Source: Sipunculus nudus
Taxonomy: Eukaryota; Annelida; Sipuncula; Golfingiida; Sipunculidae
NCBI GenBank assembly: GCA_026874595.1
Contig: CM049306.1
Coordinates: forward strand, 41,788,019 to 41,852,018
Reading direction: 5' to 3'
Length of the DNA stretch: 64,000 bases
Shown here piece by piece: positions 15,423 through 61,236 of this stretch (its first letter is position 1; the number at the start of each line of letters is the position of its first letter). The notes below the pieces were generated by a model. It did no database searches. It had not been told where the DNA came from and saw only the letters and a program-made list of their open reading frames with translations. Position numbers and translations under genes: made by a program.

Positions 15423-16520
15423 TTAATCGATATCCACAACAACATCCTCTGTGCTGGCTTTCCGAAGTTTTTCTCTTTTTCTGCGACAGCATAAACACTG
15501 CCGGAAGTAGCGATTGCAACATGAATACAGGAACATATTTATAGAACGCGACGCGAAAAACAGAAAGAAGAGAGCATGTTGGGTAACTAGTATTTCGCTC
15601 GATATTAAAGCGTCCTCATGCAGTGATCCGCGGATTATGTGGTGAAACGTCATAATGTATGTCGGAAAAGCCAAAACGACGTACAGCAGCGTTGCCACAA
15701 GTGAAACTTTTGTCATTTGGATGTTGATGATGATTTGCGGGGTCCCACTTGGCGAAACGCCTCTTGTTTCCGTTGTGCATAACTCCTTTTGCAGTGAAAG
15801 CGTCACAATCATAAAGATTAAGACTGGTAGTATAAAATTGACTGCCATGTCCATTTTCGCCAGCACCCGCATGATAGACATGAGCTGTGGTACGGGCGTG
15901 CACATGTACCAGTCGTTGAAACTGAGAACTCCTTCCATTAAGCTTATATTCAGGGATACTACCATTGCAATAATTAACAAAGCTAAAATAACGGCCCGGG
16001 CTTTGAATGGAGTACAAAAGTTCTTGCGTTTCTCAGGAAAACGTATAAATATTAAACGATCCACCATTAGTGACACAGTTGTCCAAGTCGTTAGAAAATT
16101 ACTGAGCCGGCTTCCATAGGCAACGAACTGGCACCAGCCGATCGTCTGGTAGAAATATTCATGTGTATGCTTGAAATCCGCTAGCCACACAAGAAATACG
16201 GTCAACAGGAAGGCAGCATCTGCGCCTGCGCGGGCAGCAAGATAATGTGAGGGTGAGACATCTTTGAGAGGTGAACGTAACAGCGTAAACATACATAACA
16301 AATTTCCAAGCAATCCAAACCCGACCATGAGCGGCGTCCATACGATGGATAACCACCAAGCCTCATCCCGGTACATCAGAAGTTCTGATGTCAAATTTGT
16401 CTTGTTGTTAAAAAGTAGTTCGGTCACATGTTGCTGGAACGCTGCATCCGCGCGGACTAAATCCCATCGCATGGAAAAACGCAGGTATTGCTGAAGCTCT
16501 TCTTGGGTCACGTTAAACAT
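15423..16520 (-). CDS. Class A (rhodopsin-like) peptide-type GPCR, single coding exon
   Basis: A 365-aa seven-transmembrane receptor of the plasma membrane, expected to bind an extracellular ligand (probably a peptide) and signal through G proteins. The outside N-terminus (about 1-54) has N-glycosylation sequons at N3, N39 and N42. TM1 (about 55-81) has GLLGNLLC with N73 as residue 1.50. D101 is 2.50 in TM2. C130 (TM3) and C207 (ECL2) can form the conserved disulphide. The DRY box reads DRL (154-156). TM4 (about 175-191) lacks the usual Trp. TM5 has FILP (P232). TM6 has LAFP (P286) instead of CWxP. TM7 reads NMFLY (328-332) for NPxxY, so its proline is lost. The C-tail has Cys 334, 335, 342, 344 and 345, possible palmitoylation sites. 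Start: M is chosen just inside a splice acceptor; the frame stays open 50 codons further upstream, but that is intron. Similar receptors in lophotrochozoan expansions are often labelled FMRFamide- or neuropeptide-receptor-like; the ligand cannot be told from sequence. Confidence 0.9.
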   Translation of the reverse strand: MFNVTQEELQQYLRFSMRWDLVRADAAFQQHVTELLFNNKTNLTSELLMYRDEAWWLSIVWTPLMVGFGLLGNLLCMFTLLRSPLKDVSPSHYLAARAGADAAFLLTVFLVWLADFKHTHEYFYQTIGWCQFVAYGSRLSNFLTTWTTVSLMVDRLIFIRFPEKRKNFCTPFKARAVILALLIIAMVVSLNISLMEGVLSFNDWYMCTPVPQLMSIMRVLAKMDMAVNFILPVLIFMIVTLSLQKELCTTETRGVSPSGTPQIIINIQMTKVSLVATLLYVVLAFPTYIMTFHHIIRGSLHEDALISSEILVTQHALFFLFFASRSINMFLYSCCNRYFRQCLCCRRKREKLRKASTEDVVVDID

Positions 16521-16545
16521 CTTGAGAATTCTGAAAAAAAAACAC
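16521..16545 (-). promoter_or_regulatory. 3' splice acceptor and 10-nt 5'UTR of the GPCR exon
   Basis: On the minus strand a run of nine T followed by CAG (AG at 16531-16532) precedes AATTCTCAAG and then the ATG at 16518-16520. This is a textbook polypyrimidine tract and acceptor. It implies a non-coding upstream exon at higher coordinates, which I could not locate, so the promoter of the receptor is not identified. Confidence 0.75.
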
Positions 16546-18213
16546 GAGATAAAGTAGATTAACAAACATTTAAGAAAGGGAATAAAGCTTAAACAATCCA
16601 TGCCCACTACACACGAGGCCACTATACAAGTTAAGATTGCGTCATTTCCTGTTTTCGTCGAAACTTTCAACTGATATGGATGGATACTGTTGAGTATATT
16701 TTATCTTTTGTCCTTTGAAATCAGTTTTTTTGTCTATTACAGATGAAAATTTTCTTGAATCTTATTTTAATTCTGACCAAATCTGGCTATAAGCACATTA
16801 TCAAAATATCAGCCTAAACTAAATATTCCTAAAATTTCACGTAAAATCCTTTTCATATAGAACGTGTTAATTGTGTGGATAAACCAACAGAATATTAATT
16901 GAAGGTCAGCTGTGACAAATGATATGCTTTTAGAAAAAGAGTATTTAATAGTGTATTCATTATGTTCTTGATGAATTCTAATGTGTTTTTAGCTGAAATG
17001 ATGAATGGCAGAGAGTTATTCAAGTTTACTGTGTCGCTTTGATGTGTCAGAATGGTCAATATAAAATACTGATGTGAATCTATAGATCTGACATCTGTCT
17101 ATGTGTAACCTGAAACCAATCTTTATATGTCAATCACACAGAAATTCCATCCATGTATATGCTTCCGCCTAAGTATATTTTTTTTTACAAAAAAACATGA
17201 AGGACATATATTCACTCTTAGAATAATTTTTAACAAAAAAAAAAATACGTTTCCTCTTTAAATGACATCATCATAGCAACTTTTTTCATTAAAAAAAATA
17301 ACCTAAAACTATTAATCACCAAACGGTCAATAAAAGCCTTCCCATGGTATTCGCAACTGAGCGATAATGGGGAATAGGCTAGGGAGTGTACGACCTTTGA
17401 AATAAGGTCAAAGTCGAAATGAATATCAGGTGCATATTTGCGACCTATGACTAGTATTTTGCCTAAAGGTCAGTTACTGAAATTCAGCTGTATTTGAGAT
17501 CTTGCGCAAACACTGGCAGAAGAAAAAAGGAACAATTATTGTAATTGATAACCTTGCACCCTTACGGACATTCAAAGGCCACCCACAATTATTTTTATTT
17601 TACATTTTTTTAAATATTGTTATTAATGGTGGATTAAACTCATCAATCTTTATAAGCCGTGTTGGGTTGGGGCGGATCAACTATAAATTCACAGTAAATA
17701 CATTGGAGTAAGAAAATATGCGAAAAAAAATTGTATTGTTTGGAAAAGAACACAGTTGCTTTTATGTGTGGATAATCTTGAACATTCGTTTATTTAACCT
17801 ACGACTTAGTTGATTAACCAGTGGCAGAGAAAGAAACGCGTGAAGCAGTTTTTTAAGGACCAATGCCTGATCAAGCAGATATTTGAACGCACAGGAAAAA
17901 TGTAAGGACTGGTCGAGTCTAAAAAACTGGGTCATTCCAGGCACACCCCGGTAAGAAAAAAGACGTTTACGCATACAGCACAGAGACAGAAACCAGGAGA
18001 ACTTCGCGCTGTTGCTGTCAGTTTTCATTATAGCGACAGGAGCTTTCCGCTTAAAAAAAAACCGCGATAACTGAGTTTTTAAAACATATTGCGATCAATA
18101 TTTGACTGTGAATCCTGAAAAAATGTGTGTGAGATACAGAATGCGAGATTAAGGACCTGGTAGTGAAGATAAGCACTTCGTGTGTCCATCTTCTCTCCCT
18201 CTCTTTCTCCCTG
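16546..18213. other. Presumed intron and upstream region of the receptor
   Basis: AT-rich, no repeats recognised, no upstream exon identified. Confidence 0.45.
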
Positions 18214-38172: not shown

Positions 38173-38674
38173 TGCGATAAGATAAGATAATATATATCAT
38201 TTATTGCCAATAAGGACTTTGGGTGTCAAGCAATTGATATGTGGCACAACTAAGACAATAATAATTTTATTTAAATATAATAATAGTAATAAAAAGCATA
38301 TGATTAACGACTAGAAAATATGCTTTACATACGCTTATTGACAAGCACATCGCACTCGGTATAAATTTGTCCCTGAAACGATTTGTTTTGCACATGACGG
38401 ACTCTACTCGTCTTCCACATTTCAACTGTCTGATTTCTCCACTCAGCGGATGCTGACTTCTCATCATGGGTTTAAACTTACTCAGTACCTTTGAACAATA
38501 CATACTTTCAAAGTTTTCCAAGTCTACACCAATTATACCTTCTGCAGTTTTCCTCGTTCTTTCCAATCTTTCTTTGTAAGCGACACTCAAATTATTCCAC
38601 CAGCATATATACTAAAGGTTACCACACTTTGTACAAAAATGTGTAAAACAAAGTTAGTATTTTCTTATCAATAT
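38173..38674 (-). pseudogene. LINE relic, C-terminal part and 3' tail (CR1/L2-like)
   Basis: Continuation of the LINE relic after the inserted transposon. A minus-strand frame from about 38610 to 38267 reads CWWNNLSVAYKERLERTRK, then GRRVESVMCKTNRFRDKFIPSA, the familiar end of L2/CR1-type reverse transcriptases (C-W-x-x-NLSV; TxRxxxxFxPxA). Downstream, at about 38173-38205 on the minus strand, come CAATAAATGATA and TTATCTTATCTTATC, a typical LINE 3' end with short tandem tail. Upstream of 38610 the frame shifts. Confidence 0.7.
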
Positions 38675-39373
38675 TACTCTCCCGAGGCAGCGGAAATCTT
38701 GCGCTTCTAAAGAAGCAACTGATTTTCACGCTGCCAGCTTGGACCGTTTATGATATATTTAGACACCAGATGGCGGTTTGTTGTCCACTGAAATAAACGT
38801 GCGTACGATGTGACAAGCAGCCAATCAGATGCCAATAAACAAACACTCGACAGGCATCCTGGCTCCGCCCATTGCCGCGCTTCAAGCGCCGTTTGATGAG
38901 TTTCCGGTCGAATTTAAATTGCTCCTTCTGCATTCTCGCATCATCGACCGATTCGATTATGACATTATGACTGTGTTAGCGTACCCATGTATCTGTTGTC
39001 TGCAGAACTGAAACCAGCCAGCGAGGTGTGCACGCAGCCTTTGTTGTTACGTTTCGTTTGAATTACAGCTCACCGGCCGAGCATCCTATGTGCCCATGGC
39101 CCTAAGAAAACCACGTCAGGGGCAATTCTCTCTGAGCCTGTGGCCTGCTTAGACGGTTACGCTTGGGGATGAGCTGTCACTCAATAAGAAATTAATATGA
39201 TTGGCTCTGTGTATTTCTCGCTTGGCTTTGTCTTCCAGCACAAAGTTTCATCTGATTGGACAAAAGTACAGTGCTCCCCTCTGGTGTTGCAAAGCAGGAT
39301 ACGAGGTCATAACAAACAGCGCCTTACAATATAGGAAGTAGCCCTATAGGTAAAGCGCTGTGTAAAGAGCGTA
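38675..39373 (+). mobile_element. Non-autonomous TIR transposon, copy 1 (699 bp), inside LINE relic
   Basis: The ends read TACTCTCC and GAGCGTA, imperfect terminal inverted repeats of TACGCTC. The 8-bp sequence ATCAATAT lies directly on both sides (38667-38674 and 39374-39381), a clean target duplication. The LINE reading resumes across it, which shows the insertion directly. An inverted copy lies at 53738-54413. The interior has no transposase. It carries promoter-like motifs: CCAATCAG at 38821, CCAAT at 38832, a GC box GGCTCCGCCC at 38861-38870, and reverse CCAAT boxes near 39200 and 39255. TSD length points to Mutator- or Merlin-type transposases, by inference only. Confidence 0.85.
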
Positions 39374-39650
39374 ATCAATATGAAAGCATTTCAATTTTCT
39401 AAGAAAGTCCATCCTTTGACTGCCTTTTTTTTACATAAGGCCTCTGTGTTATCTGACCATTAAAATTTTTCGTCAATAACAGTACCAAGATATTTGTACT
39501 GAGGCACAATCTCTTCAGCATAACCATAAATGAAAACAGGGTAGTAGCATGTTGGTCTATTTCTGGGTTCAATAACAAGTACTTGTTAACATTAAGTAAA
39601 AGTTGAATGGCCAAAATATTGTTTAAACCAGCTATTAATCAACCTTTTCT
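39374..39650 (-). pseudogene. LINE reverse-transcriptase relic, upstream part
   Basis: Minus-strand frames with stops resemble the late reverse-transcriptase region of CR1/L2-type non-LTR retrotransposons: a stretch like LLLNVNK and later KKGSQRMDFLRKLKCFHI. The similarity runs up to 39374, where a 699-bp DNA transposon begins, and resumes on its other side at 38674. Several frames are needed to follow it, so it is an old dead copy. Confidence 0.6.
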
Positions 39651-53737: not shown

Positions 53738-54413
53738 TACGCTCTTTACACAGCGCTTTAACTATAGGCCTAGTACCTATATCGTTAGCGCTGTTTGTTA
53801 TGACCTCGTATCCTGAATTGCTACACCAGAGGGGAGCACTGTATTTTTGTCCAATCAGGTTAGACCTTGTGCTGGGAGACACTGCCAAGCAAGAAATACA
53901 CGGATCCAATCATGTTCATTTCGTTTTGATTGACAGCTCATCGCCTTGGTAACCGTCTGAACAGGCCACAGGCTCAGAGAGAATTGCCCCAGACGTGGTT
54001 TGCTTTGGGCCTCGGACACATAGGATGCCCGGCCGTTGAGCTGTAATTCAAACGAAACGTAACAACAAAGGCTGCGTGCACACCTCGCTGGCTGGTTCTG
54101 CAGACAACAGATATATGGCTACGCTAACACAGTCATAATGTCATAATCAAATCGGTCGATGATGGGAGAATGCAGAGGGAGCAATTAAAATTCGATCGTA
54201 AACTCATCAAAGGGGGCTTGAAGCGCAGCTATGGGCGGAGCCAGGATGCCTGTCGAGTGTTTGTTTATTGGCATCTCATTGGCTGCTTGTCACATCATAC
54301 ACAGCGGACAACGAACCGCCATCTGTTGTCTAAATATATCATAAACGGTCAAAGCTGCCAGAAAATCAGTTGATTCTTTAGAAGCGCAAGATTTCCGCTG
54401 CCTCGGGAGCGTA
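53738..54413 (-). mobile_element. Non-autonomous TIR transposon, copy 2 (676 bp)
   Basis: Inverted copy of the element at 38675-39373; by eye about nine bases in ten agree in the aligned parts. It has perfect 7-bp terminal inverted repeats (TACGCTC...GAGCGTA) and a perfect 9-bp target duplication GTGGAAATG at 53729-53737 and 54414-54422. It keeps the GC box (GGGCGGAGCC, near 54234) and CCAAT motifs near 54270-54285. A frame of about 43 codons is open in both copies, but the differences between them fall mostly on amino-acid-changing sites, so it does not look coding. Confidence 0.88.
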
Positions 54414-59261: not shown

Positions 59262-59925
59262 CAGTGCAAATGCAAAACGGTTTATACCCGTTTTGAATGC
59301 GACCTGAGCGTTCAAATGGAAATCAAAAGCATTTCAAATCGTTTTGTCTAAAACGGTTTCAATCCAAATCAAGAGGTCCTTTTAAATCAAACTTTTTTCC
59401 AAAGCGAATCGGATTATCCGCTCCGCGAATGTGCCGTGTGAACGCATTTGCATTCAAAACGGGTTAGACCAAGTTTTGAAGCAGCGACTGAGTCGCAGCA
59501 CATGCTCGAATGCTTGTGTCAGCATGTTGTCACGTTGATTAACATGTGAAATGTGCACTGGTGCCAGATGCCATTGTGAACGCATTGATGCCAGATGCCA
59601 GTGTGAAAGCATTAGTGCCAGATGCCAGTGTGAAAGCATTAGTGCCAGATGCCAGTGTGAAGGCATTGGTGCCAGATTCCAGTGTGAAGGCATTGGTGCC
59701 AGATGCCATTGTGAACGCATTGATGCCAGATGCCGGTGTGAAAGCATAAGTGCCAGATGCCAGTGTGAAAGCATTAGTGCCAGATGCCAGTGTGAAAGCA
59801 TAAGTGCCAGATGCCAGTGTGAAGGCATTGGTACCAGATTCCAGTGTGAACGCATGAAACCGATTTGACAAATCCGGTTTGAGCAAAAAGTTTAAAACTG
59901 TTTTGTGTGTGAAAAGGGTATTAAT
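59262..59925. mobile_element. Possible miniature element hosting a 27-bp minisatellite
   Basis: Imperfect inverted ends: GTGCAAATGCAAAACGGTTT on the left, and on the right (minus strand) CACACACAAAACAGTTTTAA. Repeated AACGG/GTTTT motifs fill the left third. The minisatellite at 59555 fills the centre. Confidence 0.45.
59555..59860 (+). repeat. Minisatellite, 27-bp unit, about 11 copies
   Basis: Units like GTGTGAAAGCATTAGTGCCA plus GATGCCA. Because 27 is a multiple of three, several frames stay open on both strands (nine-residue peptide repeats); this is an artefact, not coding. The unit resembles the single-copy flanks GTGTGAACGCAT at 59438 and 59844, from which it probably expanded. Confidence 0.92.
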
Positions 59926-61236
59926 AATTGTTCCTTGTTCGATTACTACATCATGTGTCGCAAAAGCTTGGTGATTCAGCATAATGTCTTAAAGACAGGT
60001 TATGACTTCTGGATTATTCATAGCCCCACTTAGTAAAACCTGAAATCCAGAAGGCATAATAATAACATACCTTTCCTATCCTAAAGTTATTTTATCTCCA
60101 TTCAATTAAGAAATTGCTACAAACACACCATTGACCTCTCCAACATAAGAAAACAATTCTTAAAATTGTAAAAATGAATTGCCATTCTGTTAATTAGATA
60201 GAATTGTTTATCGACCCTGTTTTGCTCACAGAAGGCCAGCACAGAGGCTTGCGGATCATTTAAAGCTTATTTTCTAATCTTATTAATAAGACATTTAAAG
60301 TGACATATGTGACAATGTATGTTTGGAAAGCAAGATTTTAAAATTCATAAATTTTATCTGCCTCTGTATGGCAAATGTGTTTTGTGTATAAGGTTAGTGT
60401 ATGATGTTAATACTGCACTGTCAATCAAAATTAGCTAGTTCTAGCAGCTGAAATATATGCGACCCATTTCCCGAAATGAAATGACCTATCTATTTGAAAT
60501 AAAATCTATTCAGCGTAACATTTAAATGTTAATGGTTGCTTTTCTTGTAGCTGCGCATTTAAATGCTAATGCTAATTAATGCGACGTTCACAAGGTAAAT
60601 GCTAATGACTTGAAGCCGTGCTTGTGAGCAGGTATTGACTCACGCGGCTTACTCCTGTTACAGAATAGCACCTTATAATAGTTCCTTATATAGAAGCACC
60701 AATTACCACGTTGGCTTCCTAGTAGATCCGTTGATGTGTGATGTTGGACACAAGATAATTAGTTGCGTTTATCAGTCAGTCCTCAGGTGGTATATCTCAG
60801 ATTATAGTACACCAATAAGCAATGCTATACATGAATAAAGTTATAAAACACGTCAATGGCTAATTGTTATCAAATTCTTTTTTGTAATAGTTAGCCTCAT
60901 CATATATATTGTGGGTTGTTTTCAAATTAAGAAAAACTTTATACATTCAATTCAAATAGGGTGTGGAAGGTTGGGTGGGAACAAGCTCAGCTCTGTCAGT
61001 CAGCAACCCTGTTAAAATACCAGGCAAGGCTGTGAGAGAAGGTTATTGTAGGTCGTCCATGGTCGCATATTTTGTTTTTTTTTATTGCAGTAAATCGAAA
61101 GGCATTATCTGAGTCAATATACTGAGCTAATAGTTATTAGAAAGCATTTGTATAGCCGATAAAAAAAATAAAAAGTAATATGAATCCACTGCGTTGAAGT
61201 GGTTTGAAATATGTTTAATATAGAGAACGCTACCAA
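59926..61236. other. No recognisable feature
   Basis: AT-rich. Short repeats of AAATGCTAATG near 60560-60610 only. Confidence 0.5.

Follow-up and report, generated by a model that had tools for sequence, protein, structure and literature searches.

Internally deleted derivatives of P, Ac/Ds and mariner elements keep both ends and the target duplication, have lost their interior, and show variable junctions with occasional filler bases; abortive gap repair after excision has been described for P, Ac and mariner elements. Mutator-like elements (MULEs) duplicate 8–11 bp of their target, commonly 9 bp, and carry terminal inverted repeats that are typically but not universally long, with non-TIR MULEs also existing (PMC6446971). 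The 699-bp element analyzed here lies in a 64,000-nucleotide stretch of the Sipunculus nudus genome (hereafter, the window). It resembles the MITEs derived from MULEs in being short, gene-less and high in copy number, and in its 9-bp duplication and internal-deletion derivatives; the same genome also holds 131 listed MULE-domain matches, including a locus (L075) with a 9-bp duplication and different ends. It is unlike these MITEs in that its terminal repeats are imperfect and 18 bp long, whereas MULE repeats are typically long (PMC6446971), and in that no MULE transposase with its ends was found in the 3–6 kb examined at each of six places. With hAT MITEs it shares its short inverted repeats and, in a minority of its copies, an 8-bp duplication; the 9-bp majority and the terminal letters set it apart from them.

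The insertion and its family

The element occupies positions 38675–39373 (+) with exact boundaries, and lies between two exact 8-bp copies of its target site (ATCAATAT; left 38667–38674, right 39374–39381). With the element and one of the two target-site copies removed, the flanks form a single minus-strand frame that continues, with several stops, across the junction; we take this frame to be the C-terminal reverse transcriptase reading of a decayed LINE. Because the joined flanks continue as a LINE frame, the insertion is real and has the boundaries given in the preliminary description, which had proposed a 699-bp transposon with an exact 8-bp duplication inside a LINE. Two minus-strand stretches that we likewise take to be LINE remnants lie downstream (38270–38611) and upstream (39402–39638) of the insertion in LINE orientation; a Pfam search of the 114-aa LINE piece returned no family.

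The 5′ end reads TACTCTC and the 3′ end GAGCGTA (reverse complement TACGCTC), and older copies give TACGCTC as the ancestral 5′ end. In its ancestral form the terminal inverted repeat, TACGCTC...CAGCG (38675–38692, +; 39356–39373, −), is 18 bp long and imperfect: the 5′ and 3′ sides match at 13 of 18 positions when the ancestral G is used (aligned by eye). The longest stop-to-stop frame inside the element is about 75 aa, and no transposase was found among the four Pfam families matched by 73 frames of the window, which included one belonging to the element, in agreement with the earlier reading of a transposon that lacks this gene. An Rfam scan of the window gave no match at the gathering threshold, and the RNA fold of the element had a z of −3.2 (1 of 20 shuffles equally or more stable).

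Elsewhere, the window contains a second family copy (53738–54413, −; 88% identical) with a 9-bp duplication (CATTTCCAC). A 425-aa frame at 15426–16700 (−) has kisspeptin and opioid receptors as its nearest solved structures; one of the 73 window frames matches Pfam 7tm_1, presumably this one. A tandem array seen in the frames at 59457–59988 consists of AFTLASGTN-like units repeated on the minus strand.

The genome searched comprises 1.43 Gb in 153 contigs, of which the 17 encountered here are 61–111 Mb each. With the 699-bp query, all 40 scored matches (the best 40 of 2807 candidates) extended from position 1 to 699 at 97–100% identity, sharing the boundaries of the window copy. The exact 5′ end TACKCTCCCGAGGCAGCGG occurred 2373 times in the genome (1196 + 1177) and its reversed control not at all (0 + 0); the same end had no match in viral contigs, and five matches in prokaryote genomes totalling 257 billion bases, close to the chance expectation (estimate: 4).

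Target duplications were compared in three sets of copies. The 40 closest copies, picked by similarity, were the window copy and L009–L047. An exact 9-bp duplication was found in 34 of these (counting both L014 and L047, which have common flanks and represent one duplicated insertion), an 8-bp duplication in three (the window copy, L039 and L044), and no exact duplication in L018, L021 and L040; judged by its flank, L018 sits inside another family copy, and L021 matches at 8 of 9 positions. Among 20 older copies, the duplication was exact over 9 bp in five, exact over 8 bp in four, matched at 8 of 9 positions in four, and less in seven. A positional sample was taken from 100 listed 5′-end places, every one of them within the first 49 Mb of contig C1, of which 97 were used (the other three being L024 and the two window copies); since an intact first 19 bases was required, conservation there is by construction. 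Coverage was 880 bases for 40 of the 97 places and about 130 bases from the 5′ end for the other 57, and copy lengths were determined for the first 40 places only. Both ends were recognized at 36 of these 40 (L077, L086, L094 and L104, without a recognized 3′ end, were excluded), with a duplication in 33 of the 36 (exact 9 bp: 20; 8 of 9 positions: 8; exact 8 bp: 5). The family duplication is usually 9 bp, and the 8 bp of the window copy is a minority form. Base preferences were mirrored around the 9-bp duplication, three bases out on each side (34 copies).

The family comprises several subfamilies, and the window copy is of a young one with the 5′ end TACTCTC. The 32 copies of this subfamily, picked by similarity after L047 was dropped, show a mean pairwise difference of 1.4% and differ from their consensus by 0.73%; this type accounts for 3 of the 100 listed 5′ ends, the window copy included. 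In several cases, copies at two places have identical or similar flanks (L133; L153 and L155; C5:88894665 and C5:88907090), and these are local or segmental duplications carrying the element.

Based on its short length without a transposase (699 bp, frames of at most about 75 aa) and on its many copies with uniform ends and duplications (2373 5′ ends; 33 of 36 places), the element is very probably a member of a large, MITE-like family of non-autonomous cut-and-paste DNA transposons. A transposase encoded elsewhere in the genome would move it in trans by cut and paste, would recognize the ends TACGCTC...CAGCG plus what may be roughly 40 bp, and would duplicate 9 bp (sometimes 8) at the target; the window copy, of the young TACTCTC subfamily, landed in a decayed LINE. 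Judging by titles and the openings of abstracts, the family is not described in the papers listed on CTCF with transposons or MITEs (invertebrates, molluscs) or on 9-bp duplications of MULEs or MITEs, including PMC10294476. As far as this literature shows, it is a new member of a type of element that is otherwise ordinary.

CCAAT, GC and CTCF-like motifs of the interior

The preliminary description had drawn attention to CCAAT boxes in both directions and a GC box, and all are present: two forward CCAAT boxes (38821–38825 and 38832–38836, +), two reverse ones (39200–39204 and 39255–39259, −; ATTGG on the plus strand), and one GC box (38865–38870, −; CCGCCC on the plus strand). Together with a GC content of 47.6% in the element, where the flanking sequence of the 40 closest copies averages 36%, these boxes speak for a mobile promoter-like module that would start transcription at its landing site. 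However, their numbers are close to chance: of 1211 other 699-base stretches of the window, 5.0% contain at least four CCAAT boxes and 10% a GC box, and of 3000 simulated sequences, 3.8% and 14%, respectively. The older consensus has three CCAAT boxes, with CCAAC in place of the box at 38821. In the 29 long copies sampled by position, the shares of same-length stretches at least as conserved were 10%, 70%, 86% and 96% for the four CCAAT boxes and 31% for the GC box, and as a set the CCAAT and GC stretches were no better conserved than the rest. In addition, 13 micro insertions (see below) lack the entire interior that carries these motifs, which are missing at 15 of the 97 places that retained the 5′ end. 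Accordingly, the transposase-less transposon in a LINE is supported, but the promoter interpretation, with motif counts near chance, a set that is not better kept and micro forms without motifs, is not, and we consider promoter activity of the element, as judged from these motifs, very unlikely. What was supposed to be a mobile promoter becomes a non-autonomous transposon family of an ordinary type, and a few CCAAT boxes carry little weight as evidence for a promoter. We also rejected the idea that the inverted CCAATCAGATG pair serves as binding repeats for the transposase: of 1000 simulated sequences, 5.8% contain an inverted match of 11 bases, and the older consensus has no such pair.

In cephalopods, CTCF motifs are reported to sit at the boundaries of domains or at loop anchors (PMC12407938); in echinoderms they are reported, weakly, at boundaries, which their orientation does not follow (PMC13317027). 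Within the element, the best CTCF-like match of the whole window (17.4 bits) lies near the 5′ end at 38760–38778 (+), and a weaker one (11.0 bits) near the 3′ end at 39272–39290 (−), at a similar distance from its end. Such a pair could mean that the element spreads putative CTCF sites, which would fit the cephalopod data. Matches of at least 16 bits are expected 0.009 times per 699 bp of simulated sequence, although this figure depends on a hand-entered human matrix and on a motif picked after the fact. The forward site is identical in the older consensus, has a divergence that ranks at the 11th percentile in a set of 21 older copies chosen for their similarity, and retains its exact 14-base core at 48 of the 82 non-micro places. 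In the 29 long copies sampled by position, by contrast, 79% of 19-base stretches were at least as conserved, so that the site is not kept better than the rest of the element there. The weakness of the reverse site also counts against this reading, as does the echinoderm finding that motif orientation and boundaries do not correspond. Based on these sequence comparisons, dispersal of CTCF sites by the element is a minor possibility, and its interior, including the CCAAT, GC and CTCF-like motifs, would be passenger sequence.

Superfamily and candidate partners

The exact 9-bp duplication in 34 of the 40 closest copies falls within the MULE range, whereas the imperfect inverted repeats of about 18 bp are not the long ones typical of MULEs. 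We looked for the end pair of the element, with its duplication, at six of the 131 listed MULE-domain places (L049, which is the same place as L073, and L070, L071, L072, L074 and L075), and found none within the 3–6 kb covered at each, a span that farther ends would escape. A MULE family with a 607-aa frame, which accounts for 43 of the 131 listed matches, was rejected as the partner because no such ends were seen at L070 and L071. These two loci are 99.1% alike over 5.5 kb, and the 607-aa family apparently belongs to an element that is larger and has spread recently. No such end pair was found at L072–L075 and L049 either. The MULE-domain locus L075 has ends of its own (GGTTCAGGCCCGGCTATCCG / GGTGTCCGCCCGGCTATCCG), which are inverted, agree at 16 of 20 positions and are flanked by a duplication of 9 bp (GATATGACA); it is a different MULE family. 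Since no autonomous partner was seen at the six MULE places, the superfamily call rests on duplication length; Mutator-like is the likeliest candidate, with about an even chance of being correct.

A duplication of 8 bp, as in the window copy, would instead suggest a hAT-type element, and the same length was found in two more of the 40 closest copies and, exactly, in 5 of the 36 positional copies. These are outnumbered by 9-bp duplications in both sets (34 of 40, and 20 of 36 exact), and three 8-bp copies among the closest 40 do not make the 8-bp length of hAT elements the rule here. The ends of hAT elements usually start with other letters than these. We therefore regard membership in the hAT superfamily as very unlikely.

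Shrunken copies and micro forms

Among the 36 copies of the positional sample with full-length coverage, 25 measured 635–797 bp, four 455–474 bp, six 86–98 bp, and one (L090) 592 bp, with no copy between 99 and 454 bp. The 455–474-bp copies lack positions ~198–433, and L076 lacks ~46–90. Intermediate deletions are nevertheless not absent: L094 measures about 430 bp, with a 3′ end that the script did not recognize, and L173 has a junction of ~39 with ~406 (judged by eye), which would give about 330 bp if the copy is otherwise whole beyond the 130 bases covered. In the case of L090, the idea of the same ends around a captured interior was rejected: a search with the interior identified it as a repeat unrelated to the family (all 40 candidates scored, of 2324, matched), and three places with this repeat that were examined carry none of these ends. 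We take L090 as a family copy invaded by another repeat, though neither has a clear duplication. The invading repeat (also at L177–L179) is about 460–500 bp long, with 88–100% identity among the 40 scored of 2324 candidates.

The shortest class, hereafter micro forms, was found at 15 of the 97 positional places and represents 13 separate insertions, after two places in L133 were merged, as were L153 and L155, on account of their alike flanks. Micro forms retain ~35–54 bp of the 5′ end and approximately the last 40–51 bp of the 3′ end, and the centres of all 13 insertions differ, while in most of them the sequence bordering the junction agrees with that of the long element. By eye, the 5′ breakpoints fall within or just past a small hairpin (GCTTC-TAAA-GAAGC, 38703–38716, +), and the 3′ breakpoints (~648–660) immediately precede a small inverted repeat (TATAGG...CCTATA, 39330–39348, +) or coincide with its first bases; both structures were themselves identified by eye, as were all breakpoints beyond the first six micro forms and the micro status of L166 (8-of-9 duplication). 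A duplication could be recognized in 10 of the 13 insertions (exact 9 bp: 4; exact 8 bp: 3; 8 of 9 positions: 3) but in none of the remaining three. In a search with one micro form as the query, 29 of 40 scored matches (of 973 candidates), on 13 contigs, join the ends within 75–111 bp.

Two explanations of the micro forms were weighed. Abortive gap repair would leave the duplication in place, make a new junction each time and allow filler bases, which are perhaps present in L101 and L145; the break left by excision would be refilled from a template for ~35–54 nt from one side and 40–51 nt from the other and then joined, and such short repair synthesis would put the breakpoints near both ends. 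Alternatively, micro forms may be separate small mobile families descended from one or a few ancestral micro elements whose centre was free to vary. The recurrence of lengths such as 92 and 95 bp among the micro-query matches is consistent with this, as are L101 and L145, which lie 17 Mb apart and have common variants unseen in other micro forms. However, all 13 insertions differ in their centres, the junction-adjoining letters are mostly those of the long element with breakpoints varying over ~35–54 (5′) and ~648–660 (3′), and L173 has its 5′ breakpoint in the same zone with a different 3′ breakpoint. Descent from separate micro families is therefore possible but rather unlikely. Three observations count against gap repair in place as the sole source: L101 and L145, the three insertions without a recognizable duplication, and the other deletion sizes (L173, L094). 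Because L101 and L145 have common variants 17 Mb apart, some micro forms were probably transposed as such. For most micro forms, the explanation we favour is that they are products of abortive gap repair that lost the interior in place, with about an even chance of being correct. Compared to the derivatives of P, Ac/Ds and mariner elements, kept ends and duplication, lost interior, variable junctions and occasional filler are alike, whereas the breakpoints here lie mostly in narrow zones near both ends.

A further and more doubtful reading is that the micro forms constitute a genome-wide record of excision, each marking the departure of a full-length element followed by a short refill (35–54 and 40–51 nt). 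If this is true, about 15% of the sampled 5′ ends (15 of 97) would be excision scars, and the repair tracts would be unusually uniform, perhaps halted at the small inverted repeats found at the breakpoints. As a natural deletion series, the micro forms point to the minimal ends of the family. If they are gap-repair products, excision and the length of the repair tract would be measurable from an animal genome assembly alone.
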